Assembly (NCBI GenBank): GCA_028692715.1
Contig: JAQUWU010000045.1
Location: forward strand, 1 to 37,136
Length of the DNA: 37,136 nt
Origin: Paludibacter sp.
Lineage (GTDB): Bacteria; Bacteroidota; Bacteroidia; Bacteroidales; Paludibacteraceae
Direction of reading: 5' to 3'
Both the position numbers and the translations under genes were made by a program. Below, piece by piece: positions 15,047-37,019 of the stretch. The first letter of the stretch is position 1. Each line of letters begins with the position of its first letter. The notes beneath the pieces were generated by a model. The model did not search any database. It saw nothing but the letters and a program-made list of their open reading frames with translations, and was not told the origin of the DNA.

Positions 15047-18000
15047 CTATTTAAACTTATTGATTAAAAATAGGGGAAGAATAAAAAAGATTCCTATAAA
15101 TGACATTAACAATCCTCCAATTGTTCCAGCAGCCAAAGGATACCAAAATGATTCTTTAAATCCAACGATGAAAGGTATAAAGCCTAAAATTGTTGAAACG
15201 ATGGTAAGGAATAAGGGGCGAATTTTTGCATTCCACGCCTTTATATACGCCTTAAGAGGCGATATATTTTTGTTTTTACGGATATTGTTAAATTCATCAA
15301 TGATAAATATATTTGCATTTACTGTAAGTCCTGAAAGGAGTATAAAGGCTGCAAATCCTCCTGAATCAAAATTTAACTTGAACCAATAAAAAGTGAGAAA
15401 AATACCAATAAATGATATTGGAATTATAAAAACAATATACGTTGCTTGTTTTAAGGAATTAAATAAAATGCTCGAACAGAAGAATATTATCACAAACACA
15501 ATTCCAATCAACCAATACTGCTTGCTTTCTTCTTTGCCCCAGCCCCAAGTTCTTTTGGAATTATTTTTTATGGAATATCCTATTGGTAATTCTTCCTGAA
15601 ACGAATTTACAGTCTCTTCTAACACTTTATGTCCTTGTTGATAAGCTCCAATATATTCATATTGGACACAAAGCTTGTATTGTTGATCTTCTTTTGATAT
15701 TTCCTGTGGTGTCTGATATTTTTCAATAGTGGCCAACTCTGACAGCTTAAACTCTTTTTCTTTTAGTATTATAGGGATATTTTGTAAATCCCAGATATTA
15801 TATTTTTGCGACTGTTTAGATTTAGCCACAATATTTTCTGTATATTCGGAATTACTCATTTGAGCTACATAACTGTTGTTTTCAAAATAAGGTTTAAGCG
15901 ATGCATACAACTGATAAGGTTCAATGCCGGCTTTTGCCAATTGCTCATATTTAAGCTGGAGCTTGAATTCCTGATAATCATCTTTATAATAACTGAATTT
16001 TGAATTTATCAGAACTTCTTTAATTCGTCGGTATTCAAGAAGCTTCGTCCTAAACTTTTCGGCATATAGATATAAGTCATCGTAATTATACCCAAACAAC
16101 TCGGCGCGATATGAACCGGCACTTTCTTTAATGTCATTACTAAAACCATCGCCGACACCATATACACTCCAGCTTCCCCCTCCAAGTTCGAGTGACTTAC
16201 TAATAAGATTCGATTTAAGTTGATGCGGGAAGCCACTTTTTTGATGCTCTTTTGTAAAACGGATAGTAATATTGGCCCTCTTTGGATTCATAATATTAGT
16301 CTCAAATTGCCGTACCTCCGGAAACTGTCGAATATAGTCCTCCATGCGTTGAATCAAATAGTTCATTTGAACCAAAGTAGCACCATTTGGAAGCGTAGCC
16401 GTAACAAACAAACTGGTTTCTTCTCTGTCGTTATTGAAATATGAACCATTGTAAACCTTTTGTACAAAAAGTCGCCAAGTACCTCCAAGTGCATTATGTA
16501 AAGGAGTTTTCAGATGCTCTTTAAAAAACTCTAATCCAAAGGTATTATTGTATAAATCAGCAAAAGTTCCTTCTTTTTCAATTTTATCGGGTAACATAAA
16601 TACCGGAAGGCCAAACAGTAAAATGATAAAAACAAAAACCAGTATGCGTTTATTTCTCAGAAATTGACATTGAACAGCATAGAATCTATTGAAGTATACT
16701 ATTAGTCGTTTTGATTTTAATATTGAGAAGAAACGTTGAATGCGATTTGTCCGATTTGGAATTTTTCGGTTATTTAAATCATTTGAGATATTTAGTTTAT
16801 CAATTAATGCAGGAACTAAAAATAAGGCAACAGTCAGTGAAACGGATAAATTAATGATAATAACGGTAGCAAAATCTTTTAAATTCAAACGAATCTTTTC
16901 TTCCAAAAAAAAGATAATTACTAATGAACCGATAGTTGTAAGCGTGGCAGCAAGAATTGCCAAAAAAGCTTTCATATTTCTCCTATGAATTATTTGATCG
17001 GAAAGTACTATGATATTGTCAATAATAAGTGTGAGCGAAATAGTGATACCGGCCAATGAATAGAGTTGTATTTCTACATCAAATAAATAATAAAAAATAA
17101 GCGCAATAGCTATATTCATGATAAGTGAAATGCTTATCAACAAAGTGTATTTTAACTTTCTGTAAACAAGAATTACAAAAAGCAGGAGTATCAAAATTGT
17201 CAATCCGGAACGAAAGTAGATTTTATTCAATTCTTCCTGAATATATTCGGTTGCATCGTATGCCGGATTTACTTGAAAATCAGCAGGAAAACTTCTTTGA
17301 AGTTCGGCTAACTTTGATTTAACCGCGACACCAAGATTAAGTTGATTTACAGACTCATCGGCAACTACAGACAAATAGATTGTATTTAATCCATTTATCC
17401 GGTAATAACTCGTTGGCTGCGATTCTACTTTTTTAATTGAAACTATATCCGAAAGTCGAATAATTTTACCGTTAATCTTTTTTACATTAATCTGATTTAA
17501 TGCAAGTTCTATTTCTTTTTCAGTTCCAATTTCTGAAACCAGAGCAATCCGGATATATCTCTCCTCATTGTCATCCCCTAAAATTTTAGCTACACCAAGC
17601 GATTCGTTTTTAAGATATTGATTCACCAAGATTTTAACATCGCCAATACTCAAGCCTAAAGTCTCTAATTGTTTTACGTCATATTCCAATTGCCATTCCA
17701 TAGGGTTTGCACCACTAACATTTACCTGATAGACCCCATCAATCTGTGCTAAGTAGTTTTTTATTCTATCTTCGGCAAACTGCTGAATAAAAATGGGGGA
17801 AGCGGGAGCAATAATTGAATAAGTTAGAAATGTTTTTTTTGAATTGTCATCAGAGTTTCTTAATGATATACTTGGATATGATAATTCTTGAGGTAATTGT
17901 GGCCATGCTTGTCGGATAATCGTAGAAGCTTCAAATCGTGCCTGATCAGGATTTACATGTTTATCTAATTGTATTGAAACATTCCCCCAACCATTACCCG

Positions 18001-18247
18001 ATGATGAATTAATCTTCTTCACCCCTTTCATACGGCTGAGCATGGCTTCGAGTTTTGATGTTACCTCCATTTCAATAACTATGGGCGAACTGCCATACAT
18101 TGAAAATGAAACATTTATTTGTGGCAATGTTTGTGAAGGCGATAGTTTTATAGGCAATCTACTAATCAATGACAAGCCAACTATTGTAAAAAACACAAAA
18201 GTTAGTATGATCGAAAATGAAGATAATTTTTTACTCATCATATTCAT
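15047..18247 (-). CDS. RND-superfamily efflux permease (second pump of the operon)
   Basis: This inner-membrane, proton-driven pump has 1066 residues. It has the RND plan: one N-terminal helix (FSIILTFVFFTIVGLSLISR), a large periplasmic porter/docking loop, a membrane bundle near residues 340-480, a second loop and a last bundle from about 900. TM4 reads LTLIIDNIIVLSDQI, with one acidic residue where AcrB has an Asp pair. The TM10 region reads SGLTVNANIFIIDEFNN. Its ATG directly follows the stop codon of the outer-membrane channel gene, so translation is likely coupled. It is only distantly similar to the first pump, so the two could form a mixed trimer as MdtB/MdtC do, or act separately. The substrate is unknown. 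Confidence 0.88.
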   Translation of the reverse strand: MNMMSKKLSSFSIILTFVFFTIVGLSLISRLPIKLSPSQTLPQINVSFSMYGSSPIVIEMEVTSKLEAMLSRMKGVKKINSSSGNGWGNVSIQLDKHVNPDQARFEASTIIRQAWPQLPQELSYPSISLRNSDDNSKKTFLTYSIIAPASPIFIQQFAEDRIKNYLAQIDGVYQVNVSGANPMEWQLEYDVKQLETLGLSIGDVKILVNQYLKNESLGVAKILGDDNEERYIRIALVSEIGTEKEIELALNQINVKKINGKIIRLSDIVSIKKVESQPTSYYRINGLNTIYLSVVADESVNQLNLGVAVKSKLAELQRSFPADFQVNPAYDATEYIQEELNKIYFRSGLTILILLLFVILVYRKLKYTLLISISLIMNIAIALIFYYLFDVEIQLYSLAGITISLTLIIDNIIVLSDQIIHRRNMKAFLAILAATLTTIGSLVIIFFLEEKIRLNLKDFATVIIINLSVSLTVALFLVPALIDKLNISNDLNNRKIPNRTNRIQRFFSILKSKRLIVYFNRFYAVQCQFLRNKRILVFVFIILLFGLPVFMLPDKIEKEGTFADLYNNTFGLEFFKEHLKTPLHNALGGTWRLFVQKVYNGSYFNNDREETSLFVTATLPNGATLVQMNYLIQRMEDYIRQFPEVRQFETNIMNPKRANITIRFTKEHQKSGFPHQLKSNLISKSLELGGGSWSVYGVGDGFSNDIKESAGSYRAELFGYNYDDLYLYAEKFRTKLLEYRRIKEVLINSKFSYYKDDYQEFKLQLKYEQLAKAGIEPYQLYASLKPYFENNSYVAQMSNSEYTENIVAKSKQSQKYNIWDLQNIPIILKEKEFKLSELATIEKYQTPQEISKEDQQYKLCVQYEYIGAYQQGHKVLEETVNSFQEELPIGYSIKNNSKRTWGWGKEESKQYWLIGIVFVIIFFCSSILFNSLKQATYIVFIIPISFIGIFLTFYWFKLNFDSGGFAAFILLSGLTVNANIFIIDEFNNIRKNKNISPLKAYIKAWNAKIRPLFLTIVSTILGFIPFIVGFKESFWYPLAAGTIGGLLMSFIGIFFILPLFLINKFK

Positions 18248-19729
18248 CTATCGGTTGATCATTAATTCGTCGAACTGATAAGAAAGTGATACTTTTTTCT
18301 CGAAATCGTACAAGGTTAGTTTGCGTAATTTATAAAAACTTAGCCAATAATTTTTCAAAGCTATTATATAATTTTTTTGAGCTGTATTTAATCGACCCAA
18401 CGAAAGTGTTAGGCTATTCACATCAGCTTTACCTATCATGAATCGTTGTTTGGTGCTATTGTAAGCCAAGTTGGCTAAACTTTGAGCTTCTTCAGCACTT
18501 GCAATCATATTCTGTTGTACACCATAATCACTCACTGTAAGCATCACATCCTGCTCTAAATATGTTTGAGATTGTTGTACCGAAATTCTCGCAACATTCA
18601 AATTACTTTTTGCCATATTTGCATTTCCTTTACGAACCCCCCAATCCACCAATGGAATGCTAAGGCCTACTCGCACGACATCTTGTTCAAGTGGATTCTG
18701 ATAAGCACTAATAAAATTATCAGCTACCTGATTAAACCCAACACTCGCAGTAATATTTGCATCAAAAGCTGTTTTTTTTTGAGTACGTTCAACTTCTTTT
18801 TCTGCAGCTAATATATTTAATTGGTATTCTAAATAATCGGGATTATTTTCTTTAGATAAGCTTAATGCCTGATCGAAAGCAACTTCAATATTGGTTGGAC
18901 GATCTGGCAGTTCTAAGTGAATTTCTGTATCCTTTGGCAAATTGAGGTAAGCCAAAAAACTTAACATAGCTCTTTTAAGTCCAATACTTACACTCTTCAA
19001 TGTGTTCTTCGCATTCAGCGCATCTAATTTTAATGTCAATAAATCAGCTTGTGAAATTGATGCAATTTTAAGTCGTTCAGATCCAATATAAAAAAGCGAA
19101 TCGGAAGATGTTACATTTTCTACTGCCAAATCATACTCCAGCTGAGCCATAGCCAAATTAAAGAAGTATTGTATTGATGTTTCCGATATTTCTTCACAAG
19201 AATATAGAAACTCTTTTTTAGCTTTCTCGTATTTTAGAGGTTCAATTTTTCGCTCCCATTTAAAACTATTATATCCGAAAAGTGCTTGAGAATAGCCAAC
19301 ACGAAAAGGCACACTCGAAAATTGAGAATAGGCATTATCACCAATATTACGGAAATAACCGAGTTCAGAATCAATAAAAAATGTACCTCCTGTAAAATCC
19401 ACATTTTGGGTTAATGATAAGTTTCCATAAGAGGATAAGGACTGTTGTTGACGATAAATATCAATATTATTTTCCGAATCATACCGACTTACAAAGTCAC
19501 GATTGAAACGAATCGGAGTCAGTGAGAGTGTTAATGAAGGCAACCGAGCCGCTTTATACGATTTATATTCCCAATAACTAGACCGGTAAAGGTTCTTCAC
19601 ACGAAATGTCTGAAGGGAACTGTCAGTAGCAATAGCAATACTTTGTTGTAAAGTCAGTGTTTGCGTTTGAGCAAACAAGCTATTAGTGCATATCAAACAA
19701 ATAAATAAATATAGATTCTTTTTGAACAT
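18248..19729 (-). CDS. TolC-family outer-membrane channel protein
   Basis: The protein has 493 residues, with a signal peptide (MFKKNLYLFICLICTNSLFA) and then two TolC-type repeats. Each repeat contains long helices, and strand segments alternate with aromatic residues (for example SLSSYGNLSLTQNVDFTGGT). The sequence NVARISVQQSQTYLEQDVML and the closing YIIALKNYWLSFYKLRKLTL fit the outer-membrane efflux protein family. It forms the exit duct for the adjoining adaptor and RND pumps. It lies 13 bases after the first pump gene and abuts the second, so the genes form one operon. Confidence 0.88.
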   Translation of the reverse strand: MFKKNLYLFICLICTNSLFAQTQTLTLQQSIAIATDSSLQTFRVKNLYRSSYWEYKSYKAARLPSLTLSLTPIRFNRDFVSRYDSENNIDIYRQQQSLSSYGNLSLTQNVDFTGGTFFIDSELGYFRNIGDNAYSQFSSVPFRVGYSQALFGYNSFKWERKIEPLKYEKAKKEFLYSCEEISETSIQYFFNLAMAQLEYDLAVENVTSSDSLFYIGSERLKIASISQADLLTLKLDALNAKNTLKSVSIGLKRAMLSFLAYLNLPKDTEIHLELPDRPTNIEVAFDQALSLSKENNPDYLEYQLNILAAEKEVERTQKKTAFDANITASVGFNQVADNFISAYQNPLEQDVVRVGLSIPLVDWGVRKGNANMAKSNLNVARISVQQSQTYLEQDVMLTVSDYGVQQNMIASAEEAQSLANLAYNSTKQRFMIGKADVNSLTLSLGRLNTAQKNYIIALKNYWLSFYKLRKLTLYDFEKKVSLSYQFDELMINR

Positions 19730-19742: not shown

Positions 19743-22700
19743 CTATTTTTTGATTTTGGTAGTACGATTGAAAATTCGTTTAAATGAGTTGGGCGTATAA
19801 ACCCACCAATACGCCAATGGAACTACAAAAAGACTGATCGGCGTACCTATAAGCATTCCACCAATTATGGAGATAGCGAGTGGTTTTTCAAGTTCCGAAC
19901 CCATATCGGAACTAAAAAACAAAGGCAACATACAAACAATTGATGTCAAACTGGTCATTAATATAGAATTCAATCTTCGTCTACCGGCTTCATGTATCGA
20001 TTTCATAAGCGACAAACCTGATCGACGTAATTGATTCATAATATCTACTTTCAAAATACTATCGTTGATAATAATACCGCACGACACCACTATACCAATA
20101 GACGACATTAAGTTTAAGCTGTGCCCCAGTAGCATTAATAAAGCTAAGGAGGCGGTGATGTCAATTGGAATTTCCAACAATACAATAAACGGCTGTACAA
20201 AACTCTCGAACTGGGCTGCTAAAATAAAATACATTAGCAAAATAGAAATCAATAAAATGACTATCATTTGACTCATCATATCTTTGTTCGTAAAGAAAGT
20301 TCCTGAAAAGACAACGTCCCAACTGCTATCCATTTTTGCTTTTTCTTTCAATTTACGGACAATTTTTTCAGGTTGCTTGGCATTGTAAAAGTAAAAAGGA
20401 ATGTATTCGCCATTTTTCCCCGCTATAATTGTTTTCACATCTTCAGCAGTGGATAGGTTTACAAAGTTGCTCAGTGCAATGCTGTTTCTTTTTCCACTTT
20501 CATCGGTAGTGGTATAAATCATGGTATTATCAATTACTTCCCGAACTTCATTTTCTTTTCCACCAAGCACTATGGGCAAATATTGTTGATTGGAACGCAA
20601 AACAGAAAAGTTATTTTCTTTAAAACCTGTTTTCACAACCCTGTAAATATCATTGTAGGAGGCGCCATACAAAATCATTTTTTGCTTGTCGATATCCAGA
20701 TTCAACTGACTCTGAAATGAAATTCCAGTTGGTACTTCACCTGTTGCTGATGAGATTTCATTTTTCAAATTATTTATTTGTCCGGAGTTGAGATGAAGAT
20801 CATTGTTTTTTTTATAATATTCAGCAACAATATCCGGCTCACCGGCAGTAAAGATCCGCTCAAAGATAGTGATTGAGGGTGAAAAAGAGACAATTGCTTT
20901 TGGATAATTGCGATTAAAATACTTTTCAATTTTATCTTTAATTATCAGAACATCATCCTTTGTTGGGACTTTCAGGTAAATTTCAGACTCCGACGATGAT
21001 TTGTCTTGTTTGCTATTCAATAAAAATTGTTGCTGACCCACTAATGCTGAGTTCTCAACAGTACCGGCTTTTATTGAATTTGTAAATAGCTGCACCCGAC
21101 TTCCATTCTCATTAACATTTATGTTTTCGTTCCACTCCACATTCACCAGCAATTCATTTTGGCTAATGTCTGGCATTTTTTCTTTCCGTATAGAGTTAAA
21201 GAGAATAAAACAAATGGGGAATACAGCTATCAAACTAAATAACGTGAGTGATTTATGAGCAAAAATCCAGTTTACACTTTTATGATAATAACGTTCATGA
21301 AAAGAAACTTTAGATTTATTATTCGCTTTTATTTTATGTCCTTTTGATTTAAGTTTCTGAATAAATTGGGGCGTTTTTAAAGAAAAAACCAATTTATACA
21401 TCACAGGTAGTAACATGATTCCAGTAATATACGATACCAATAGGCCGGCTGTTACAGAAAATGCCTGATCATAAAAAATTGCGCCTGCAATTCCGCTCAA
21501 GAAAATAAGAGGAAAAAACACCGATATGGTTGTAAAAGAGGAACTAAGCATAGGAGCTATCACTTCGTTGGTACCACGTATGCACGATTCGTCAAGCGAG
21601 TAACCACTTTTGTGGTACTGACTAATATTATCTGTTACAATAATGGAACTGTCTATCATATTCCCAAAAGCCAGAATGAGCCCGGTGAGCGATACGATAT
21701 TAAGTGAAACATTAAACAAATAAAAAAATAACAAACTGATTATGAGTGAAACAAACATGCTTAAACCTATAATCAGTGGCGATTTTAAATCACCCAGAAA
21801 AAATGCTGAGACCAAACAAATAAATATAAACGCCAGAATCAGGTTCTGTTTTAGGTTCGAAATTGTATAGTCAAGTAGTTCGGTTTGATTTTGGGAGATT
21901 TGAAAATCGATAGTTGGATATGTTTTTCTTAAACGGTCTATTTCTTTATTGATGGACGATTTCATATTATCCATATTTTCGTCGGCCTGTTTTATTACTG
22001 CCAATGTAACAGCCCGTTGTCCGTTAAAATAAGCCATACCCCTTTCTTTTTCAGGCACAAGATTTACTTTTGCCAAATCTTTCAACTGATATATTTTGTC
22101 ATTTTTTCGGATATAAATATTTTGCATATCCTCAATGGTTCGCATTACTGCCGAGAACTTAATATTGTATTCGTAATGACCATCTTTCACGGTCATACTT
22201 CCGGGTTCAATATTGTTGTTATTCAATGCAGATTCTATATCAGCCAAACTAATACCGGTAATCTGGAGCTTATTTTCGTCTGGTTCTACAAGCACTTGCC
22301 TATGCATAAGTCCAGTCATATCTACCAAAGCTACCTGTGGTAATTGTTCAATGCGACGTTTGATAACCGCTTCTGAGAATTCTGATAAATCCAAAAAGTC
22401 ACTTTCTGAAGCGGTTTTGTTTTTTAGTGTAAGATTGAGATTAAAGACAGGAATATCAGTGGCACTAGCTTTTACCACACGGGGGCGGTCGATGGTTCGA
22501 GGAATACGCCCCATGGCAGCATCTATTTTTTCGTTTACCTCTACAAAAGCTAATTCGGTATCAGTTCCATGATTAAATTTCAGGTAGATTACCGCATTCC
22601 CATCACGAGTTTCAGAGTGAATATCACTTAATTTACCAACCTGAAGTAATTGATGCCGAACAGGTGCAACAACAGTATTTTCAAGTTCGCGAGCCGAATT

Positions 22701-22853
22701 TTCATTCCCGCTAATATGCACTGTAATTTCGGGTATGGCAATGTCTGGCAACAACGAAACCGGAATATTCATATAGGTAATAATCCCTAAAATGAAAAAT
22801 GCCGTGAAGGCCATAAACACAGCTATGGGACGTTCAATAAGAAATTTAATCAT
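19743..22853 (-). CDS. RND-superfamily efflux permease (first pump of the operon)
   Basis: This RND pump of 1036 residues begins with the classical MIKFLIERPIAVFMAFTAFF and the IPVSLLPDIAIPEITV strand. TM4 has LILAFGNMIDSSIIVTDNI, a single Asp at the proton-relay position. The second half has QPFIVLLEIPIDITASLALL and GIIINDSILKVDIMNQLRRSG. It extrudes a substrate from the periplasm through the adaptor and the TolC-like channel. There are 9 bases to the adaptor gene and 13 to the channel gene. It could export drugs, lipids or, given the surrounding genes, processed peptides; the sequence does not decide between these. Confidence 0.9.
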   Translation of the reverse strand: MIKFLIERPIAVFMAFTAFFILGIITYMNIPVSLLPDIAIPEITVHISGNENSARELENTVVAPVRHQLLQVGKLSDIHSETRDGNAVIYLKFNHGTDTELAFVEVNEKIDAAMGRIPRTIDRPRVVKASATDIPVFNLNLTLKNKTASESDFLDLSEFSEAVIKRRIEQLPQVALVDMTGLMHRQVLVEPDENKLQITGISLADIESALNNNNIEPGSMTVKDGHYEYNIKFSAVMRTIEDMQNIYIRKNDKIYQLKDLAKVNLVPEKERGMAYFNGQRAVTLAVIKQADENMDNMKSSINKEIDRLRKTYPTIDFQISQNQTELLDYTISNLKQNLILAFIFICLVSAFFLGDLKSPLIIGLSMFVSLIISLLFFYLFNVSLNIVSLTGLILAFGNMIDSSIIVTDNISQYHKSGYSLDESCIRGTNEVIAPMLSSSFTTISVFFPLIFLSGIAGAIFYDQAFSVTAGLLVSYITGIMLLPVMYKLVFSLKTPQFIQKLKSKGHKIKANNKSKVSFHERYYHKSVNWIFAHKSLTLFSLIAVFPICFILFNSIRKEKMPDISQNELLVNVEWNENINVNENGSRVQLFTNSIKAGTVENSALVGQQQFLLNSKQDKSSSESEIYLKVPTKDDVLIIKDKIEKYFNRNYPKAIVSFSPSITIFERIFTAGEPDIVAEYYKKNNDLHLNSGQINNLKNEISSATGEVPTGISFQSQLNLDIDKQKMILYGASYNDIYRVVKTGFKENNFSVLRSNQQYLPIVLGGKENEVREVIDNTMIYTTTDESGKRNSIALSNFVNLSTAEDVKTIIAGKNGEYIPFYFYNAKQPEKIVRKLKEKAKMDSSWDVVFSGTFFTNKDMMSQMIVILLISILLMYFILAAQFESFVQPFIVLLEIPIDITASLALLMLLGHSLNLMSSIGIVVSCGIIINDSILKVDIMNQLRRSGLSLMKSIHEAGRRRLNSILMTSLTSIVCMLPLFFSSDMGSELEKPLAISIIGGMLIGTPISLFVVPLAYWWVYTPNSFKRIFNRTTKIKK

Positions 22854-22862: not shown

Positions 22863-23924
22863 TTATTGCATTACCGTTACAGGCGATTCGTGCGCCAAAT
22901 TGACATTCCCATCGTAAATTACGCTATCGCCTACATGTAGGCCATCGGTAACAACATAGCCCGACGAGTTTTCCAAACCGGTGGTGACGTAGTTCCAATA
23001 TGCCACACCTTTTTTTAGCGTAAATACCACTTTTTTATTCGTCCTGAGTACCAATGCTTCTTTTGGAATAACCAGCTGTCTTGAAATGCTGCGTTGAATA
23101 AGTACTTTCACATTCATTCCATCTACTAATTTCGCCGATGCAGGTAAAATAGCCTTTACATATACCATCCCATTTTTATCTACCAATGGATTGATCTCTG
23201 TTATTCTTCCTTCCGAAATATAATCTGTTATTGAAAAAGGTGACACGCTGACCCTATCACCCTTGTTTACCAAAGTAACTTCATTTTCAAGAATTTTAAA
23301 TTCAACTTCGGGATGATTATTGTCGATAATGGAACAAAAAGGTTCAGAACCAGATGGATAATTAAATTCTTTCGTAAACAAATTAGCCACCACTCCAGTA
23401 AACGGAGCATATAGTACTGCGTTTTTTAAATTATATTCTGCCATTTGAAAATTAAGCATGCTCTGGTCATAATTACTTTTCACTTTGGCTATTTTCATAA
23501 CATCGGCAGGTATTTTCAGGGAGTCACGCAACGAATATCCCTGACCAATCAGTACATCTTGTAATTCAAGTTTTGCACGTTCCAGATTATCTTTTGACTG
23601 TAACATAGTACTGCGAAGTTTAAACTGATCCAATTCCGCAAGTTTCTGTCCTTTAACAACCCGATTGCCATTTTTCACGTATATACCCGTAATCTTTTCG
23701 GAAGTCAGGAATTTCAATTCGGCTACTTGCTGTGATGCAATCGTTCCGTTGGCAATCAAATCATGATTAAAATCGGACATCTCCAAGCGTATTGTTTTTA
23801 CCGGAGTTGGCTTGTCAATAATTTCCTTATTGTTTTCCTCCACTTGTTCTGATTGCTCACCTTTCGTCGGAGAGCAAGAATAGATTAGGAGCAATGCTGC
23901 TGCAAAAGTTAAGATATTTTTCAT
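22863..23924 (-). CDS. RND efflux periplasmic adaptor (membrane fusion protein), lipoprotein
   Basis: The protein has 353 residues. The lipoprotein signal ends at C17 (LLIYSCSPT). A lipoyl/barrel-sandwich domain is split by a helical hairpin (about 100-160): KITGIYVKNGNRVVKGQKLA before it and LYAPFTGVVANLFTKEFNYP after it. Beta-barrel and membrane-proximal domains follow, with GMNVKVLIQR and LVIPKEALVLR. It links the RND pump to the outer-membrane channel. It is the first gene of a four-gene operon and is preceded by an 84-base leader and the repeat-containing promoter at 24014-24078. Confidence 0.9.
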   Translation of the reverse strand: MKNILTFAAALLLIYSCSPTKGEQSEQVEENNKEIIDKPTPVKTIRLEMSDFNHDLIANGTIASQQVAELKFLTSEKITGIYVKNGNRVVKGQKLAELDQFKLRSTMLQSKDNLERAKLELQDVLIGQGYSLRDSLKIPADVMKIAKVKSNYDQSMLNFQMAEYNLKNAVLYAPFTGVVANLFTKEFNYPSGSEPFCSIIDNNHPEVEFKILENEVTLVNKGDRVSVSPFSITDYISEGRITEINPLVDKNGMVYVKAILPASAKLVDGMNVKVLIQRSISRQLVIPKEALVLRTNKKVVFTLKKGVAYWNYVTTGLENSSGYVVTDGLHVGDSVIYDGNVNLAHESPVTVMQ

Positions 23925-24013
23925 TTAATTCTGTTATTTCTTTTTAAACAATAAATTGTTGAATGATTACATGAAAAGATGAAGTAAAACCGAAAAGACA
24001 CAAAACTTACTGA

Positions 24014-24078
24014 CAAATTTAAGAATTTAATTTGTCTACACCTAGTTAAAATCCCTTTCGATTCTGACTCAATTCTGA
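24014..24078 (-). promoter_or_regulatory. regulated promoter of the RND operon with 11-bp direct repeat
   Basis: On the - strand, TCAGAATTGA (24069-24078) and TCAGAATCGA (24058-24067) are direct repeats of one helical period. After 36 bases comes TAAATTTG (24014-24021), a TAnnTTTG -7 box. There is no TTTG -33 element; CTAGGT stands about 19 bases before the box instead. A missing -33 plus an upstream direct repeat suggests activation by a regulator bound near -60. The same arrangement with the same 36-base spacing lies before NVEALA peptide 1. Confidence 0.6.
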
Positions 24079-26597: not shown

Positions 26598-26641
26598 TTT
26601 ACCATGTTAATACTAAAAATTGTAAATTATTAATCGAATTG

Positions 26642-28589: not shown

Positions 28590-28604
28590 CACATTATATT
28601 TTTG

Positions 28605-29483
28605 CTATTTGATAAACTTCATCACTCTATTCCATCTTATTTCCCCTGAATATTTATCTTCAGATTTCCATATTATGGAAGCTTTACCCACAATGTGGTC
28701 TTCGGGCAATAAACCCCAGTATCGAGAATCCCGAGAATCCAGGACATGATCACCGGACATAAAGTAATAATTGGTTTGAAATGTATATTTAGAGATACAA
28801 CTATCGTTTAATAAAACTTGTCCACCTTTCTGTTTTATATACCTTGCAGTTTCATATTCTATCAGTTGTCTATAAAGTGAGATATTCATTGTATCAATAT
28901 TTAAACAATCCCCTTTATGGGGTACATAGAGCGGACCAAAAAATTTTAAATTCCAATGATAAGAACTTCTTTTGGGGAAACATTGAAACACATTAGACTC
29001 AAAATCTGACTCCAACGAATGTGACATTCGCATTTGATTTTCAATATTACCCAAGGTGTCTTTACAACCTTTTACTTTATAAATTCCATTGTCGATATAA
29101 AATGTATCGCCCGGAATGGCAATACAGCGCTTTACATAGTATTTGTTGATATCTAAACTCAATTTTCCTTTTGTTGAGTAGGGAAAATTAAAAACGAGAA
29201 CATCATTCCGCTTAATGCTTCGTACACCTTTCAACCTCCATAAGTTGGGTTTTGAATTATTCTCCAAAAAGTCATAATCCTTAAATATCCTTGCACCGGG
29301 AATTAATTTATTTACTATAATATAATCGCCGGATTTCAATGCCGGCTCCATCGAAGGGCTCGGAATTTTAAAGGTGGAAAACACAAAAATCCGTAATGTA
29401 ACTGCCAGTACAACTGCAACCAGTACTAATACCAATATTTGCCAACTATTTTTCAGGTATTTGTTGAGTCGATTAATTTTCAT
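28605..29483 (-). CDS. lepB: signal peptidase I (S26 family), accessory copy
   Basis: This membrane protease of 292 residues cleaves signal peptides on the periplasmic side. One N-terminal anchor helix (about 13-34) is followed by the nucleophile S44 in IPSPSMEPALKSGDYI and the general base K118 in YYVKRCIAIPGDTFYI. The closing motif is GDHVLDSRDSRYWGLLPEDH, then VGKA. A loop of about 80 residues separates the Lys and the closing motif and contains several Cys. Its place between propeller and O-antigen-ligase-like genes, close to two peptide precursors with an A-x-A motif, suggests a dedicated role in trimming those peptides. That link is inferred from position only. Confidence 0.9.
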   Translation of the reverse strand: MKINRLNKYLKNSWQILVLVLVAVVLAVTLRIFVFSTFKIPSPSMEPALKSGDYIIVNKLIPGARIFKDYDFLENNSKPNLWRLKGVRSIKRNDVLVFNFPYSTKGKLSLDINKYYVKRCIAIPGDTFYIDNGIYKVKGCKDTLGNIENQMRMSHSLESDFESNVFQCFPKRSSYHWNLKFFGPLYVPHKGDCLNIDTMNISLYRQLIEYETARYIKQKGGQVLLNDSCISKYTFQTNYYFMSGDHVLDSRDSRYWGLLPEDHIVGKASIIWKSEDKYSGEIRWNRVMKFIK

Positions 29484-29554: not shown

Positions 29555-30553
29555 CTATTCTAAATCAATTTTCACAATGCAATATTCCGGATTAATGGCT
29601 ATTGCATAAACAAGGTTTGACTTTTCGTTTGAAGCAAGTCGCATTATAGGAATTTTTGTATCAATAATTTTCACCAAATTCAGTTTATAATCGTATACAT
29701 AAAGAGTTTTAGGGATATCTTCAGATAAATTTTGCTCTTTAGGTCGTTTCTTATACTCCTTTTTCTGAGCAGCAACAATATAATCTTTTGTTAATGTCAA
29801 TTCGCTTATAAGTACCATTTTATCTTTTATTTTCATTTCTCCATGCGAAATTGTATAATCAGGCTTAACTAAAGTTTTTTCATGTTTCAATTCAAATACA
29901 TCTCCACTTTTTCTATAAACTGCTAAATAGGGATAAAAAAAGATACTATATACCAGCAACTCTTTTTCTCTATTGTATTTCAATACCCCTTGATATGTAT
30001 TATAACCATTTGAGATTGGGTCCACAATTGGATACTTACCAAATGCAATGAGATGCTTTTTTGTTATTACCTTAAAAGGTTGTTTTTTTTCCGGATAAAG
30101 GCCTAAGAATCTGTCATCATCGATTTGCACAATTCGGGTTGCCCTCTTAAAATTTGTTTTATCTCTGAATTCCATGCAATTGCGACCGGCAACCAGATTA
30201 TCAATTGATAAAGTCGCAAGTTTCTTCGAATTCAAATCAGCAATCATAATATTGTTCCCTGAAGAGATATGCACTGTTGGTGTCATAAATTCAAGAGGAC
30301 CCATCCCCTTATTTCCCGTCTGTGCAATTTGTTTTCCCGTTTTCAGATCAATTACTTTTAAAAAATCATAGACAGCAAAGGGATCAAACCAGACTAAATA
30401 ATCGTCGCACAACATAAGATTTCCGGGCATACTAGTGTAAAGCGAATCAGTAATCAAAACAGGGTCAATAATACTGGTTTGTACTGGCTTGTTTTTAACA
30501 GTGCATGCATTAAGAATAAGTGCAAGAAATAAAAAATTTAAGATATTATTCAT
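29555..30553 (-). CDS. TolB-like six-bladed propeller lipoprotein
   Basis: The protein has 332 residues, with a lipoprotein signal ending LILNAC (C16). The propeller has the motif GNKGMGPLEFMTP, a variant of GxGPxEF, and repeated strand pairs such as KTLYVYDYKLNLVKII. It is more like the BF3351/TolB-like group than the other three propellers here, and its GHG motif is GMG. No enzyme residues are seen. It sits 71 bases upstream of lepB in the same direction and is probably part of one transcript. It may bind a protein or peptide at the cell surface. Confidence 0.72.
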   Translation of the reverse strand: MNNILNFLFLALILNACTVKNKPVQTSIIDPVLITDSLYTSMPGNLMLCDDYLVWFDPFAVYDFLKVIDLKTGKQIAQTGNKGMGPLEFMTPTVHISSGNNIMIADLNSKKLATLSIDNLVAGRNCMEFRDKTNFKRATRIVQIDDDRFLGLYPEKKQPFKVITKKHLIAFGKYPIVDPISNGYNTYQGVLKYNREKELLVYSIFFYPYLAVYRKSGDVFELKHEKTLVKPDYTISHGEMKIKDKMVLISELTLTKDYIVAAQKKEYKKRPKEQNLSEDIPKTLYVYDYKLNLVKIIDTKIPIMRLASNEKSNLVYAIAINPEYCIVKIDLE

Positions 30554-30661: not shown

Positions 30662-31822
30662 TCAACCTTTTACACTTTTCATAAAAAATAAAATTGGATT
30701 TGAGTCTATATCAATCGTTGATTTTAAAACAGAGTTAATTTCTAATAAATCTTGATCATCCATATCATATGGTTTTACTATATATATTGACATGTCTTTA
30801 GTTACTCCTACAGGATATGACAAAACTAAATGTTTAAAATTGAGTTGGCTCTCAGTTGGTGATTTATAATCAAGAATATTTTTAAATACATCTATCGTTT
30901 TTTTCTTAATATTGTAACAACCATGATATTGTATAGATTTCTTTTTAATTTCAGAAAAATTAAAATGAAATTCATCACCTGTAAACATAAAATCGCAGAT
31001 TCTACCCATATATCCATTATTTTGAACTAACTGATCATATTGCATTTCATCATACAATTTTTGTATTTGTGAATAAGGCAAAGTTTGGCGACCAAAATTT
31101 ATTTCAAAAAAAGGACTTAAATCATTATCATTAATTTTATAAACTATATTACTAAATGGATAAATAAAGAAGTTTTCATTACTCGAATTTTGAAGAAATG
31201 TTGAACGGAAAGAAGTTCTAAAGAAGTTCTTTTGAGGAAAATAGCCGCACAATATCTTTTCAAAATTATTCCCAACTTTCATAATACTATAACCATTTGG
31301 ATTTCCAGTTTTATAACAACTATAGATCCAATACCCATCTTCTACTTTACAAAAACTTCTGAACATAAATTGTTTTGTTGGGATTTCAGATATTAATTTC
31401 CCAGAAATATCATATATATACATGAATTGTTTAATCCCTTCCTGTGCATACATTAACTTAGAAGAATAATCATAAAATACATCATTGAACATTATATGTT
31501 CTCCTGGACCATTTCCCTTTGATCCAAATTTTCGAATAAATTCACCATTAGACTTAAATAGAAAAATTTCATTTTGTTTATTGTCAAATATTACTATTGA
31601 GGAATCTATTACATATATCTTCTCTATTTGTTTTATTAAAGATTCTGAAGTTGTTTCTAAAGGAACACAATTATAAATATTCAATTTTCTTGATAAATCT
31701 AATGTTTTATCCTGCTTGACATCTATATTTACAGTGTCAACAAATGTGTTATTTTTTTCGCGATTAGCACAACTATGAAAAAAAATTGAAACACAACAAA
31801 AAACTAAAAATTTTATTTTCAT
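30662..31822 (-). CDS. six-bladed beta-propeller lipoprotein (DUF5128-like), partner of NVEALA peptide 2
   Basis: The protein has 386 residues from the ATG at 31822 (MKIKFLVFCCVSIFFHSC). A longer frame reaches 31870, but it would start inside the hairpin region and lacks the expected signal. The lipidated cysteine is C18. The propeller has CVPLETTSESLIKQIEKIYV, then GEFIRKFGSKGNGPGEHIMF with the GxGPGE motif, and blade repeats to the end. It follows NVEALA peptide 2 after 82 bases, mirroring the NVEALA 1/propeller pair. Confidence 0.8.
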   Translation of the reverse strand: MKIKFLVFCCVSIFFHSCANREKNNTFVDTVNIDVKQDKTLDLSRKLNIYNCVPLETTSESLIKQIEKIYVIDSSIVIFDNKQNEIFLFKSNGEFIRKFGSKGNGPGEHIMFNDVFYDYSSKLMYAQEGIKQFMYIYDISGKLISEIPTKQFMFRSFCKVEDGYWIYSCYKTGNPNGYSIMKVGNNFEKILCGYFPQKNFFRTSFRSTFLQNSSNENFFIYPFSNIVYKINDNDLSPFFEINFGRQTLPYSQIQKLYDEMQYDQLVQNNGYMGRICDFMFTGDEFHFNFSEIKKKSIQYHGCYNIKKKTIDVFKNILDYKSPTESQLNFKHLVLSYPVGVTKDMSIYIVKPYDMDDQDLLEINSVLKSTIDIDSNPILFFMKSVKG

Positions 31823-31849
31823 TTTATTTTCTAATATTACAAATATTAT

Positions 31850-31892
31850 CACCCCAACAATAAAACACAAAATTTTGATTATTATTGGGGTG
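31850..31892 (-). promoter_or_regulatory. stem-loop directly downstream of NVEALA peptide 2
   Basis: CACCCCAA (31850-31857) pairs with TTGGGGTG (31885-31892), and the stem extends weakly inward through AT pairs. It begins 11 bases after the peptide stop and ends shortly before the propeller start. No U-run follows on the - strand. Position and GC-rich base match the hairpin after NVEALA 1, though the sequence differs. Confidence 0.65.
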
Positions 31893-31903: not shown

Positions 31904-32287
31904 TTAATTCTCACAAACAGGATAATCTTCACAACCATTTTCACCATAAGGTTTACAACATGAAGTAGTTATAGTATAATATCCAGTTTCATAAGTAGCA
32001 TCACTTGGCTCCTGATTAGTATTAGAAGTCATATACATCCAACATTGATCTTCCATGTTCCAATCCCACCCAATTTCTTTGGTAAAACCAGTTGTAAAAA
32101 ACCCTGTTTCAGAAGTTTCGCTTAGAGTCCCATTAGGTTCAGAAGACTCAATGAAGGCCAATGCCTCCACATTCGCCAATGCCAACATCGAAGTATGATT
32201 CGTCTTACTCATATTTAAATTCACATTAAAAGCTACAGCTACAGCAATCGCTACTACAGCTATAACGCCAAATACTTTCTTTTTCAT
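31904..32287 (-). CDS. NVEALA-family secreted peptide precursor 2
   Basis: The precursor has 127 residues with the same 44-residue leader as peptide 1 (35 of 44 identical), including FNVNLNMSKTN and LALANVEALA, then a longer core of 83 residues. The core is acidic and rich in Thr, Ser and Glu near its start and has five Cys near its end (DQCW, SCCK, NGCE, PVCE). The odd Cys count leaves one free or available for pairing between chains. The core shares no visible sequence with peptide 1. It is followed by a hairpin and a propeller gene. Confidence 0.85.
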   Translation of the reverse strand: MKKKVFGVIAVVAIAVAVAFNVNLNMSKTNHTSMLALANVEALAFIESSEPNGTLSETSETGFFTTGFTKEIGWDWNMEDQCWMYMTSNTNQEPSDATYETGYYTITTSCCKPYGENGCEDYPVCEN

Positions 32288-32490: not shown

Positions 32491-32554
32491 TTATTTATAT
32501 CCAAAAGAATCATTTTAATCTAGTATAATTTACACATCACTGCAAATATTAAAA

Positions 32555-35149
32555 TTATCTCACAATAATTCCATTTTTAGTAATACCTTCGTTGAATATG
32601 GAGATATACTTACAGTTTCTGTTATTATAAAAACTTACAGAGACTTTCCCTTCTTTATCCGTTTTTACATCTGGATTCCAATACAGCGTACGACGAAAAT
32701 CTTTCTCGTCGGGTAAAACTACATCTTTGTAATTTGGAGCGAAAAATTCTCTGACATTCGAATAACCTTCAAAAGATGTTTTGCGAATACCATTCTTGTG
32801 TCTATTAGCACCTTCCTTTTTAGTATTTATATAAATTATGGTGTATTCTTTGCTTCTATCACAACCCTGACAATACCCAAGTGCAAATTTACTATCTTCA
32901 GCTATCACAATAGACTCCACTGTTCTTATATCCAGGTCACTTACACACAAATTTACAAAATCATTTGCCGGACTACTTGCATTGTAATTATTAAATGCCT
33001 CTTGGGTAAAATCGGAAAATGGGGTTACTCGTGCTATTGAGTTATTAATTAGAAAAATGACATCTTTACTCATGTATTGACATATAACTTTGTATATTAC
33101 TGTATTAAGTGTGTCTTTTACTAAGTAACTATTACATATAAATAAATTGTGTTGTTGACGTATAAAATCAAGTACATCATAAGGTTCACTTTCCCCAACA
33201 TCTTCTAGCTTTTCAATTTCTTTACTGACATTATAAATAACACTAGCCTGACTAATTGCTTCTTGTTCGCGTTTCCATTTCTTCTTTTCTGTTACTGTTA
33301 TTTCTCGGAGCGAAAGTGTTTTTGCTATGGAGTCCGACTTTACCGTAATTTCTGAAGGTTTATAAACTTTTGTTTTTTCAATCGGTTTTTCAATCGTTTC
33401 TTCGGATAATATCTGACTTTTAGGGGCTGTAAAATTGAAATTTTGTTCATCATATACAATGGTTTTTGGTGTAGGACTAAAAACCCGATCTAACAAAACC
33501 CGATACTCTTCTAGTTTCGATTTTTTTCTAGTTTCGATATTCAACTCTGTCTTACCATAAAAATCATTCAAAACCAAATTAAAATTACCTTGACTGTCGG
33601 TTATACATTTCCCTTTTTGGTAGGGTGTAAGCATCCACATGGTTACTTCCACGTTTTCCATTTCTTTCCTTTTAACAACGGATAAAACTTGTCCTTCTAC
33701 TATCAAACTTTTTTCAATACCATACTTTATCTCAATGGGTTCAATTCCTGCCAATTGATTCCATGCATATCTGCGCCAGCCCTGAGTTAACATCAATAAA
33801 TCCAATGCAAATTTATGTTTGTTGTCATCCTTTTCGAAATAATATGCAGGATTCTCAATATATCCTTTTAGCTCGGAAGAAAGTAGCAAATTCGTGTTTA
33901 TGTCATCCGTATAACCCGTTTGAATTTCTGTTCCCTTGTCTCTTACTGATAATGAAAATGTCGTTTCTACAGGATTTCCTTGCTTATCTTCGACCCTAAA
34001 ATCAATAGAAATTGGACTCAATGGTGCATAGGTAGCATTTATGTCGGATTTAATTTGCAGCGTATTATCATGATTGATAAAAGCCAGGCGTTCGGCAAGT
34101 ATTTCACCCAACTTATTGAAAACAGTAATCTGGATAACTCCTGAAGGCAAATTGCTTTTGAGAATCGTAAGCAATGAAGGCTCACCTTCTGTTATACTGA
34201 ATTTTTCAAAAGCATACACTTTACCCCGACAGGTGAATGTAACTCCTAAAGTATCGTTGGGAAGATCAGCCGTTTTATTTAGTTGTACACGTAAGTATTG
34301 CGAATTAAGATTGTCCGTCTGAAGGGTATATCCACTTTCTAAACTTTCAGGCAGATCAACTTTAGTTTCGTCTTTACCTGCTATAATTTTGGCAGTATAT
34401 TTTTGTCCATCCGGATAAAGAATGAAAGAACCCATACCCTGATAAACGCTTGAAAAGGTAGTGATTTCATCTCCTTTTGAGTTGTATATTATTCCTGAGA
34501 CATCAATGCTTTTCCCTTGTTTGTCTGTTGCTTTAAATGCAATTTTATTCGAAAGGCCGTAAACAAGATTCCCTCCTTCAGGATAAAAGCTAATATCTAT
34601 TTTATCAAGTTTTTCTGTTTTTTCACGATAACTCAACACACGTTTAGTTTTTGGTCGAACTGTCATCGTTTTGCTGGAGTAAACACCTTCCACCCTCGGC
34701 TTGTCATAGACAGGAAACACGCGCGAAAAAATCCCATTTTCGTCAAAATTAAGCATGCATTTTGTGTATGCCCTCACTTCATAGAAACCACTGTAGAGAC
34801 TATCTTTCAACGTAAACTCTCCGTGAGCTTGTCCGTTTTCTATTTTCAACTTTTTAGTTTCCAGAATGTCTCCTTCAGGTGTAAGTAATTCTACATAAAG
34901 CACCTTACTTAAAGGAGAAAGCATATTGTTTTCTGCAGTAACCACATAAGATTTAAACCAAATTGTTTCACCCCTATAATAAGCAGTATTGTCAAAGTGC
35001 AAGTATACTTTCTCTTGTGGATAGAGGAAATTGAACTTCTCAATGTTATCCACAAATTTATTCAATTTCAAAATAGTACTATCCTGTTGCCCCAATAGTG
35101 AACCGGACAATAAGAGCAATAGTAATAAGAGAAGATTTGTTTTTTTCAT
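32555..35149 (-). CDS. large secreted MG2-domain / TonB-plug-like surface protein
   Basis: The protein has 864 residues from the ATG at 35149 (MKKTNLLLLLLLLLSGSLLG, a signal peptide). An N-terminal MG2-like module has EKVYLHFDNTAYYRGETIWF and GFYEVRAYTK. Several beta-sandwich repeats follow. A carboxypeptidase-regulatory-like strand region is near GQVLSVVKRKEMENVEVTMW, then a plug-like domain near DVLDFIRQQHNLFI. The C-terminal module has RRTLYWNPDVKTDKEGKVSV and ends EGITKNGIIVR. This is a common Bacteroidales layout, probably envelope-anchored and involved in import or surface binding; its role is not established. The frame extends 23 codons upstream to 35218 without a signal, which I reject as coding. 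Confidence 0.75.
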   Translation of the reverse strand: MKKTNLLLLLLLLLSGSLLGQQDSTILKLNKFVDNIEKFNFLYPQEKVYLHFDNTAYYRGETIWFKSYVVTAENNMLSPLSKVLYVELLTPEGDILETKKLKIENGQAHGEFTLKDSLYSGFYEVRAYTKCMLNFDENGIFSRVFPVYDKPRVEGVYSSKTMTVRPKTKRVLSYREKTEKLDKIDISFYPEGGNLVYGLSNKIAFKATDKQGKSIDVSGIIYNSKGDEITTFSSVYQGMGSFILYPDGQKYTAKIIAGKDETKVDLPESLESGYTLQTDNLNSQYLRVQLNKTADLPNDTLGVTFTCRGKVYAFEKFSITEGEPSLLTILKSNLPSGVIQITVFNKLGEILAERLAFINHDNTLQIKSDINATYAPLSPISIDFRVEDKQGNPVETTFSLSVRDKGTEIQTGYTDDINTNLLLSSELKGYIENPAYYFEKDDNKHKFALDLLMLTQGWRRYAWNQLAGIEPIEIKYGIEKSLIVEGQVLSVVKRKEMENVEVTMWMLTPYQKGKCITDSQGNFNLVLNDFYGKTELNIETRKKSKLEEYRVLLDRVFSPTPKTIVYDEQNFNFTAPKSQILSEETIEKPIEKTKVYKPSEITVKSDSIAKTLSLREITVTEKKKWKREQEAISQASVIYNVSKEIEKLEDVGESEPYDVLDFIRQQHNLFICNSYLVKDTLNTVIYKVICQYMSKDVIFLINNSIARVTPFSDFTQEAFNNYNASSPANDFVNLCVSDLDIRTVESIVIAEDSKFALGYCQGCDRSKEYTIIYINTKKEGANRHKNGIRKTSFEGYSNVREFFAPNYKDVVLPDEKDFRRTLYWNPDVKTDKEGKVSVSFYNNRNCKYISIFNEGITKNGIIVR

Positions 35150-35267
35150 TTTTCTTCGAATAAAAAAAAATTTTGTATTGTATTGACCCGAACTGGCGTA
35201 GTCTGCGACCTGTGCCATACAAAGACTTACTAATCAATTAAATTTAAACCATTTGCATTTGCACGGA

Positions 35268-35927
35268 TTATAAATATACGCCAGCAGGGAAGTATCTATC
35301 ACATAATGCTTTTAAATAGACTTTTGTTAATTCAGGCAATTCTTTATGTGGAATAAATACGAATCTAGCTCGCATTGAATTATCTAAAATAAAAAAATGT
35401 GGTTCATTCCTTTCATCAATTTGCTTTAAAATATCACCTTCTACATTATAGATAGCGTATTTAGTTTTATTTGTCATATTAAACATTTTTAAGTTACGTA
35501 AATTATCATATGAAGCTATAAATATTACGTTTTCTGCTTTAAAATTATGACTAAATTCATTTATTATTTTAATCTGAGATTCAACACAAGCTTCGCAATT
35601 TAAATATGAAAATCTAACAATTAGCCTTGCGCCATTTTTAACAATATTTTTAAGCATAATTTTCTTTCCTTTATCTGACGTTAAAACCATATTAGAATCA
35701 ATTGGAAAATATTCAGAATACATATACGATTTGAATTCGCTTTTAATAACATTTAAGTTTGTGTTTTGAGCACTGTATTTCTCTATAGTAATATCATAAT
35801 AATTAAGTAATTTGTTTACATTATTTTTATAATACTGAAAATAAACAAATACACCAACAAGCGTAATTATTAGTAGAAATATTAAACCTTTCTTAGTCAT
35901 CATTCTATTTGATAATATTTTAATCAT
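35268..35927 (-). CDS. membrane-anchored thioredoxin-like protein with CEAC active site
   Basis: The protein has 219 residues. One N-terminal hydrophobic anchor (LIFLLIITLVGVFVYFQYY, about 15-33) leads to a periplasmic domain. RLIVRFSYLNCEACVES puts a redox CxxC at C111 and C114 after a strand, the thioredoxin arrangement. NVIFIASYDNLRNLKMF and EPHFFILDNSMRARFVFIPH give the next strands and the cis-Pro region. The likely role is making or reshuffling disulfides, or TlpA-like reduction, in the periplasm. Both peptide cores nearby are Cys-rich, so they are plausible substrates. The start could also be at codon 9 or 10 (MMTKKG). It lies just downstream of the truncated propeller. Confidence 0.7.
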   Translation of the reverse strand: MIKILSNRMMTKKGLIFLLIITLVGVFVYFQYYKNNVNKLLNYYDITIEKYSAQNTNLNVIKSEFKSYMYSEYFPIDSNMVLTSDKGKKIMLKNIVKNGARLIVRFSYLNCEACVESQIKIINEFSHNFKAENVIFIASYDNLRNLKMFNMTNKTKYAIYNVEGDILKQIDERNEPHFFILDNSMRARFVFIPHKELPELTKVYLKALCDRYFPAGVYL

Positions 35928-35957
35928 CTTGTTATATTTGTAATTATATTCTATAAA

Positions 35958-37019
35958 TCAAAATGAAAATTTTACAATAAGAGGATTGTCAAACTCACTT
36001 AATTTCATTTCCTTTAAAGAATATAAAATAGATTTTTTTGATGCATTTAAAATATACAACGGTTCCACTAAAGCATAAAAAGAGGTAGCATCGGAAGATA
36101 CAATTCTAAAACTACTATCAGAATTAAATTTACCGGTATAACTTTCTTTTTCGTTTTTATTTAATAATACCTCATAATATTTACCTTCTGGTCCAATTGC
36201 TAAAACATATAACCAATCTTTTGTTTCTTGAATATTTGTAATACGCTTAAAATAATTGCCTCTACCAATCTCATCAATATTATTCTTTGTAGCAATAGAA
36301 TTAATTGGTAATGCTAATTCACCGAAATCAATACTATATTTAACTGACATTTCTTCTTCAGTTATTTCATATATATTAAAATCACCATGTGGTGGTACAA
36401 GTAAATAATTACCATTCCATTTCTTTGTAAATCTATCTGTTTCAATTATGTAATTATCATTTTCCAATAATCCCTGTAGATTTCCATCTGATTCTCGAAA
36501 AAAACAATTTTTGTCATCATTAGTAGATGTTCCATTCCAAAAATAATTCACATTATTTTCGAAGCAGATAAGTTGTAGTGGATTAATTTTCTCATTAATT
36601 TTTACTTTTCTTACAAATGCGCCATTTTTAACATTGTATTTAACAACATTTTTATAATCAAGTATAGAAATTATATCTCCACCCTTATTTAAATCAAAAT
36701 CACGGATTTCTACATATTCCTGAGGACCATTACCTTGTCTACAAATTTTTGAAATAAACTTACCTTCTTGATTAAACTCAAATATTGTTTTATTTTTACT
36801 ATCAAATATGTAGTATTTATCTCCTTCAACAATTATTTTTTTTACTGATCCTATTAAAACGGAGTCGCATGTTTCAAGCCTAACACACCTATCAATTTTT
36901 ATTGATTTAGGCCACTCAAAAACATTGTCTACAATACTCTTTTCTATAGAGAATGTTTGCTCACATTTATATTTCGATTCCTGCTTGTTGCACGATACTG
37001 TAAATAATAATATAAAATG
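35958..37019 (-). pseudogene. six-bladed beta-propeller lipoprotein, 5' end lost at an insertion element
   Basis: The frame has the lipobox region FILLFTVSCNKQ but no usable start. Upstream the only in-frame start-like codon is a TTG at 37040, which gives an odd lead (MGAKADSHF) inside what looks like the end of an insertion sequence. A stop codon lies shortly before it. The positively charged start of the signal peptide is absent. The rest is a complete propeller of the same kind as the others (CVRLETCDSVLIGSVKKIIV, GKFISKICRQGNGPQEYVEI with GNGPQEY). It is probably inactivated, or expressed only from a transposon promoter. Confidence 0.65.

Follow-up and report, generated by a model that had tools for sequence, protein, structure and literature searches.

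What does a run of peptide, lipoprotein and pump genes do together in one Bacteroidales gene cluster? The stretch analysed here (the window, 37,136 nucleotides) is contig JAQUWU010000045.1 of the Paludibacter sp. assembly GCA_028692715.1, that is, contig C76 of a genome (G000) that is of Bacteroidales type judging from its genes and their relatives. The genes in question lie at 15047-37040, all on the minus strand, and include precursors of small peptides with an NVEALA leader and a complete pump of the resistance-nodulation-division (RND) type. We consider it moderately probable that this region holds most of a Bacteroidales system that makes secreted, disulfide-type peptides by way of Sec, a signal peptidase (SPase) and an RND pump, under the control of a peptide pheromone.

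In this proposal, precursors with a shared leader would cross the inner membrane by Sec, and a dedicated compact signal peptidase I would cut them after A-x-A. CxxC proteins would handle the cysteines in the periplasm, a Wzy_C-TPR protein may modify the product, and the adaptor/RND/TolC/RND set would carry the mature cores out. The precursor gene is commonly followed by that of a propeller lipoprotein, which may bind, display or give immunity to its core. A mature C-x3-G-x2/3-C peptide encoded on a second contig, C26, would be sensed by a divergent histidine kinase, and an OmpR-type regulator would bind tandem CAGAATT repeats that control the NVEALA cassettes and the RND operon. All of these steps, from cleavage, modification and export to sensing, regulator binding and biological activity, are predicted from sequence.

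A preliminary description of the window had named the parts of such a system, and all of them were found on the minus strand. From the right end, the order is propeller lipoprotein, CxxC protein, MG2-like protein, NVEALA 2, propeller, propeller-like lipoprotein, compact LepB, Wzy_C-TPR protein, NVEALA 1, propeller, adaptor, RND, TolC, RND. The four pump genes bear the expected profiles: the periplasmic adaptor (membrane fusion protein), first gene of the RND operon (22863..23924, minus strand, as for all genes below; HlyD_D23 37.4 bits, cut-off 30), the first RND transporter, RND1 (19743..22853; ACR_tran 559.7 bits), a TolC-type outer membrane factor (18248..19729; OEP 100 bits) and the second RND transporter, RND2 (15047..18247; ACR_tran 368.7 bits). 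Two precursors had also been proposed. NVEALA 1 (26161..26400), with a leader, an A-L-A site and a Cys-containing core, matches PF14055 at 40 bits (cut-off 27), while NVEALA 2 (31904..32287) falls just under the cut-off by hmmscan (26 bits) and passes it in the genome search (34.6 bits).

The distribution of the pump ties it to the precursors. Among 392 genomes of the order, PF14055 matched in 29 and a leader model built from 50 of 68 leaders matched in 35; marginal matches, such as the long frames in G111 and G359, are probably false and were kept in these counts. In 374 phylum-wide genomes, the same model gave four matches, three in members of the order (G000 included) and one outside it (E 5.8e-5). 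Relatives of RND2 at E <= 1e-60 were present in 78 of the 392 genomes, that is, in 30 of the 35 NVEALA-positive versus 48 of the 357 NVEALA-negative ones. Where both occurred, they shared a contig in 20 of the 30 genomes and lay within 40 kb of each other in 18. RND2 relatives of at least 214 bits were found in 26 of the 29 PF14055-positive genomes, in which the other listed RND proteins did not exceed 117 bits; this gap is clean in NVEALA genomes and less so order-wide, where it contains a few matches of 24-25% identity. We rejected chance as the reason why RND and NVEALA genes adjoin, given the genome counts together with the contents of the compact LepB loci described below.

Could the peptides nevertheless leave by another route, an ABC (ATP-binding cassette) exporter with a C39 peptidase or type 9 secretion, with the RND set as an ordinary drug pump nearby? 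RND pumps are common and generic, and a C39 protein occurs somewhere in 17 of 27 NVEALA genomes. However, RND2 is a distinct type that co-occurs with NVEALA at the frequencies just given, and the promoter box and -7 spacing of the RND operon are of the kind found at NVEALA 1. None of the 30 C39 matches in the 27 genomes lay within 40 kb of an NVEALA gene (places compared by eye, within the limits set by contig ends). Neither G000 nor the same-genus genome G373 had any C39 match, and C39-dependent ABC export was rejected for G000. We regard a separate exit route as very improbable.

The second line of evidence comes from the signal peptidase I gene (28605..29483), which matches TIGR02227 at 107 bits (cut-off 47). 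Searching 29 genomes with the window LepB gave full-length compact matches at 163-344 bits and, as a second group, matches at 124 bits or less, mostly to housekeeping enzymes of about 450-500 residues. Ser44 and Lys118, which we take to be the Ser/Lys dyad of signal peptidase I, are invariant in 20 of 20 aligned compact proteins. In a scan of named genomes, restricted to the best 80 of 580 confirmed stretches, every one of the 22 compact loci held other genes of the system: Wzy_C in 19, propellers in 18, transglutaminase-like genes in 15, RND-set genes in 14 and NVEALA genes in 13. The 58 other LepB loci in these 80 stretches contained no NVEALA, Wzy_C, transglutaminase-like or RND-set gene; propellers occurred in one, an MG2-like gene in one and a kinase in two. 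Named carriers of the compact enzyme include Phocaeicola vulgatus ATCC 8482 (NC_009614.1:82079-102981), Bacteroides timonensis, B. rodentium, Paraprevotella xylaniphila and Prevotella aff. ruminicola. A tree built by a quick method, without signal peptidases of under 200 residues and without the intermediate-score ones of RND clusters (<280 bits, loci before L148: L076, L085, L108, L124, L132), put 53 of 54 compact rows together, to one side of a branch whose SH-aLRT (approximate likelihood ratio test) value is 98. On the same side fell one 265-residue row labelled housekeeping (L198), and on the other, on a long branch, an NVEALA-linked enzyme of 454 residues (L063). The lepB subtype mentioned in the preliminary description is a distinct group tied to the system, and the window enzyme is probably dedicated to it.

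Other envelope genes accompany the peptidase. In 28 of 54 cases, the gene that immediately follows compact LepB on its downstream side is a Wzy_C relative, as in the window, where the O-antigen-ligase-like membrane protein (26697..28592) reaches 72.3 bits for Wzy_C (cut-off 31.7) and its TPR-like C-terminus stays under the cut-off. The periplasmic CxxC protein (35268..35927), membrane-anchored and thioredoxin-like, has no Pfam match, yet C111, C114 and P176 are kept by all 10 of the relatives aligned, and its profile weakly matches a thioredoxin in the PDB (E 0.014). Related clusters often add a lipoprotein of about 650 residues with a discoidin-type C-terminus and, on our reading of its sequence, a transglutaminase-like middle; often they also add a TlpA-like protein with DUF1573.

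We then consider the peptides themselves. The precursor set comprised 73 sequences, of which 68 had a motif from a list that we drew up from the sequences; the five without it were dropped. Their shared leader consists of an N-terminal membrane segment followed by xN(V/I)EALA. The signal peptidase I rule for positions -3 and -1 is obeyed by 65 of the 68 (ALA in 51; K or M at -3 in three), and in 65 the cleavage motif lies 18-27 residues past the most hydrophobic stretch, a spacing that exceeds that of an ordinary signal peptide. Cysteine makes up 249 of 2,896 core residues versus 25 of 2,910 leader residues. The cores are diverse, often several per cluster, with recurrent CxxxC...CxC forms, and some core families recur across distant genomes. 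The most extended case, L064:4658-18398 in genome G316, comprises eight tandem NVEALA-propeller units, one propeller being in two frames, with very similar leaders and very different cores. A seven-NVEALA array was seen in Prevotella aff. ruminicola Tc2-24 (L164:15734-20589); several of its cores share an HG stretch and several cysteines, and the last five genes have no propellers in the stretch covered.

The 5' untranslated region (UTR) of six NVEALA genes of this genus contains a GC-rich hairpin of the type GGGGCGGA ... TCCGCCCC, identified by alignment and folding of the six copies. In the window, these lie at 26480-26640, upstream of NVEALA 1, and at 32366-32500; the others are at L036:590-740 and 3510-3660 and at L037:12880-13030 and 18820-18960. 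Little covariation was found among the six copies, there was no Rfam match at the gathering threshold, and the same hairpin was not seen by eye before the two signal-class genes.

A third line of evidence concerns common control. The promoter motif that the preliminary description had seen at both NVEALA 1 and the RND operon proved real: it consists of two CAGAATT repeats 11 nt apart, with two matches in the window and none in 100 shuffles, and, with up to two mismatches allowed, a shorter form has no further site in the genome. Upstream of NVEALA 1, the putative response-regulator box is an exact CAGAATT-N4-CAGAATT (26688..26705) that overlaps the end of the ligase gene; upstream of the RND operon it has one mismatch (24060..24077). 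Exact pairs number two in G000 and five in G373, all within NVEALA clusters. At up to one mismatch, each genome has 14 matches, five of them in the cluster, compared with one and zero for the reversed control. The distance from the start of the second repeat to that of the Bacteroides -7 consensus, TANNTTTGY (PMC12632263), is exactly 45 nt in all four promoters with two repeats, namely those of NVEALA 1 (TAAATTTGC, 26641..26649), the RND operon (TAAATTTGT, 24013..24021) and two NVEALA genes of G373, against a background of 96 per 183,596 positions. Scanning for sigma-70-type promoters gave chance level. Genome G248, of another lineage, has TGTCATT repeats with the same period (nine matches at up to one mismatch), which partially back the reading of the repeats as regulator boxes. 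At the ends of two contigs of this genome (L228:7880-8253 and L229:1-374), near-identical gene starts each adjoin a propeller and have a TGTCATT box before them.

The candidate regulator is encoded on contig C26, beyond the window to which the preliminary description was confined. The rightmost propeller gene of the window (35958-37040) is broken near its 5' end by an insertion sequence (IS), which we take to be IS1595/ISXO2-like and whose end forms the last 121 bases (37016..37136, no strand assigned). Because these bases and the first bases of C26 are matching inverted ends of one IS, flanked on both contigs by the same 8 bp (TAATATAA), the cluster probably continues onto C26, an adjacency deduced from these ends. 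C26 (L036) adds three NVEALA genes, accompanied by propellers and CxxC genes. The third of these NVEALA genes encodes a 70-residue precursor and is divergent from a 455-residue histidine kinase and an OmpR-type regulator, and four CAGAATT-type repeats, 11 nt apart, separate signal precursor and kinase in both G000 and G373. In the latter, a comparable arrangement stands on one contig (L037, L038). An IS21-type pair, presumably istA/istB, adjoins the NVEALA cluster on C26 (L036:10276-12793).

Similar arrangements recur: among the loci first compared, 15 precursors in nine genomes (G000 and G373 included) are no more than 300 nt from a kinase or ToxR-like gene in divergent orientation, and L158 of P. 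vulgatus adds to these. With a motif that we defined after inspecting the sequences, which weakens the comparison, a C-x3-G-x2/3-C core was found in 16 of 18 regulator-adjacent precursors versus 25 of 105 others; one of the two exceptions lies 760 nt from its regulator. The sensor regions of the kinases and the ToxR-like proteins are homologous (probability 96.9, E 1.8e-10). Their outputs differ, with a separate regulator in the one case and a C-terminal Trans_reg_C-like domain (26.0 bits, cut-off 26.2) in the other.

Several observations weigh against the proposal of a peptide export system under pheromone control. On the side of regulation, the repeat in the window sits in a duplicated block of about 100 nt (24014-24117 and 26642-26746), which takes in the Wzy_C 3' end and has its second copy before the RND operon, so that duplication alone could have explained the motif there. 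Each of the two genomes has nine one-mismatch repeat matches outside the clusters, above the control, and the signal-precursor promoters have no strict -7 match. Two of the four exact pairs in G248 are at NVEALA promoters and the other two beside a repeated gene adjoining propellers; of the five one-mismatch pairs, a single one is at an NVEALA promoter, a second lies close to an integrase-like gene, and the other three are found elsewhere. We dropped the idea that the shared motif is a mere copy of the ligase gene end, given the same repeats at two G373 promoters and between signal precursor and kinase. The duplicated block, with its Wzy_C 3' end, suggests that an NVEALA-propeller cassette was inserted between Wzy_C and adaptor; at 10 of 59 adaptor genes examined, Wzy_C is the gene immediately upstream.

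On the side of export, the association of RND and NVEALA genes proposed in the preliminary description finds partial support. Many NVEALA-propeller pairs lie far from any RND set, and in the complete genome G350 none of 11 model matches is within 800 kb of RND2, although one lower-scoring NVEALA gene shares its 20-kb stretch. Conversely, among 22 RND2 loci of NVEALA-negative genomes, 13 have at least one other gene of the system and 11 a propeller, several of the rest ending at contig edges; two of the 11 (L091, L133) hold a lower-score NVEALA-like open reading frame (ORF). Such RND-propeller clusters would be expected if RND, LepB, Wzy_C and propellers made up a system for envelope or surface assembly whose main cargo is something else, the NVEALA peptides being sentinels that report on it to the kinase by their cleavage or passage. 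The transglutaminase-like and DUF1573 partners likewise suggest more than peptide export. Diverse Cys-rich cores, several per cluster and in up to eight tandem units, fit products better than a sentinel, and the recurrence of some core families across distant genomes points the same way. A surface-assembly system with sentinel peptides is in our view unlikely, yet it deserves to be taken seriously.

What, then, do the propellers do? Four propeller lipoproteins had been claimed for the window. Three pass the cut-off for DUF5128 (PF17170): the partner of NVEALA 1 (24747..25862; 204.9 bits), the partner of NVEALA 2 (30662..31870; 126 bits), both predicted to be 6-bladed, and the IS-interrupted one (35958..37015; 118.8 bits), likewise 6-bladed. 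The fourth (29555..30553) is at most a divergent propeller-like lipoprotein. It has no DUF5128 match, sharing one short stretch with that profile (probability 48), and has eight relatives at E<=3e-36 among the propeller-type proteins compared. The predicted structure of the NVEALA 1 partner (pLDDT, the per-residue confidence of the model, 85.5) is nearest to 4raa, B. fragilis BF0058, at a TM score of 0.80; the title of that entry is putative exported protein.

We also asked whether cores and propellers vary together. From 123 precursors we obtained 74 unique pairs: 20 were dropped for lack of a motif, and the others because no propeller lay within 500 bp, the core was shorter than 18 residues or the core was repeated. 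Over all 74, the correlation of core and propeller was null (Mantel r 0.049; 106 of 1,000 permutations as high). Because most cores are too different to align, a further test was confined to the 30 most similar cross-genome core pairs, whose propellers lie at a mean similarity percentile of 0.93 and whose leaders lie at 0.51; permutations gave a mean of 0.50 (sd 0.06), and none of 1,000 reached the observed value. Most of these 30 pairs belong to one core class. With the pairs labelled as signal class removed, the top 12 gave 0.70, reached by 28 of 2,000 permutations, and two of the 12 are still signal-like. Two pairs of the RPDG family fail to match. By these tests, matching is clear for the signal class and the CxNGC class, suggestive elsewhere and contradicted by the two RPDG pairs; it is supported only where cores are recognisably similar.

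Matching of this kind in some families, the tandem precursor-propeller units and the recurrent CxxxC...CxC cores would also suit bacteriocin toxins aimed at neighbours, each propeller being the immunity protein and kinase and regulator serving ordinary environmental control without a peptide sensor. Against this, a distinct core class accompanies sensors whose sensing regions are homologous and whose outputs are of two types. Moreover, of 154 full-length propellers, 67 are preceded by an NVEALA gene at a distance of up to 400 bp and 87 are not, and known bacteriocin immunity proteins are much smaller than these propellers. Toxin and immunity pairs without peptide sensing seem improbable to us, and we retain secreted peptides under pheromone control as the favoured one.

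A few neighbouring features complete the window. The large surface protein at 32555..35218, described earlier as MG2/plug-like, is present and probably accessory, its MG2 match (24.4 bits) being under the cut-off of 32.8. Between propeller and RND operon, a small ORF with a signal sequence (24505-24699) resembles a remnant left by a frameshift, with a run of T where it breaks. Further to the left, a gene at 12002-14548 encodes an SGNH-hydrolase-like protein whose C-terminus resembles, by eye, a type 9 secretion sorting domain.

How does the system compare with known ones? In the regulons of class II bacteriocins and their pheromones (blp, pln), pheromone and product precursors have a common leader, product genes are followed by a partner gene, a kinase and regulator are present, and direct-repeat boxes stand at the promoters of product and exporter. 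The genes studied here likewise have a common leader, partner genes, kinase and regulator, and repeat boxes. In contrast to the double-glycine leader, C39 and ABC machinery of blp and pln, they have an A-x-A leader with an N-terminal membrane segment, signal peptidase I, an RND set and propeller partners. GG follows the A-x-A-like motif directly in just 4 of 68 precursors; since both a double-glycine leader and a nearby C39 exporter are lacking, the system is not a member of the class II bacteriocin systems, and it would resemble their regulons in logic, not machinery. Bacteroidetocins are anti-Bacteroidales peptide toxins from Bacteroidetes, related to class IIa bacteriocins according to PMC6671954. 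They share with our peptides an origin in Bacteroidetes species and are set apart by that relationship. Leader and exporter type also distinguish them.

Tripartite pumps of adaptor, RND and TolC are familiar from AcrAB-TolC and MdtABC-TolC, and MdtABC also has two RND proteins. Unlike these, the set described here is tied to ribosomal peptide precursors, a compact signal peptidase and a shared promoter box. Enterobactin secretion needs tripartite RND pumps, according to PMC8277102. By profile, precursors and propellers are members of NVEALA (PF14055) and DUF5128 (PF17170), and the Pfam descriptions give neither a function nor this system. The open-access literature searched, a scope outside which preprints and subscription papers fall, contained no mention of 'NVEALA', and a search of titles and listings of open-access papers returned no description of an NVEALA system. 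As far as the accessible text of one Bacteroidales peptide-mining paper extends (PMC10352776), one of the clusters described there includes a kinase and a regulator, and RND, signal peptidase and propeller are not named. The assembled system would be new, provided that RND peptide export is confirmed.

A fuller model, which we put forward tentatively and at rather less than even odds, is that signal and effector peptides share one leader, a dedicated signal peptidase, a dedicated two-RND tripartite pump and matching propellers, with one sensor domain fused to two outputs, kinase and regulator or a one-piece ToxR-like protein. Such a system would be convergent with the class II bacteriocin regulons of Gram-positive bacteria, without common secretion machinery. 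Drugs and small molecules are the known cargo of RND pumps, and for ribosomal peptides an ABC exporter is considered the usual way out. If true, RND export dedicated to peptides, with maturation in the periplasm, would be a new class of peptide secretion. For NVEALA and DUF5128, Pfam families to which no function has been assigned, the proposal also supplies a working hypothesis. If a peptide signal does control the system, cell-cell communication among gut Bacteroidales would become directly testable in Phocaeicola vulgatus ATCC 8482, the type strain of a commensal.

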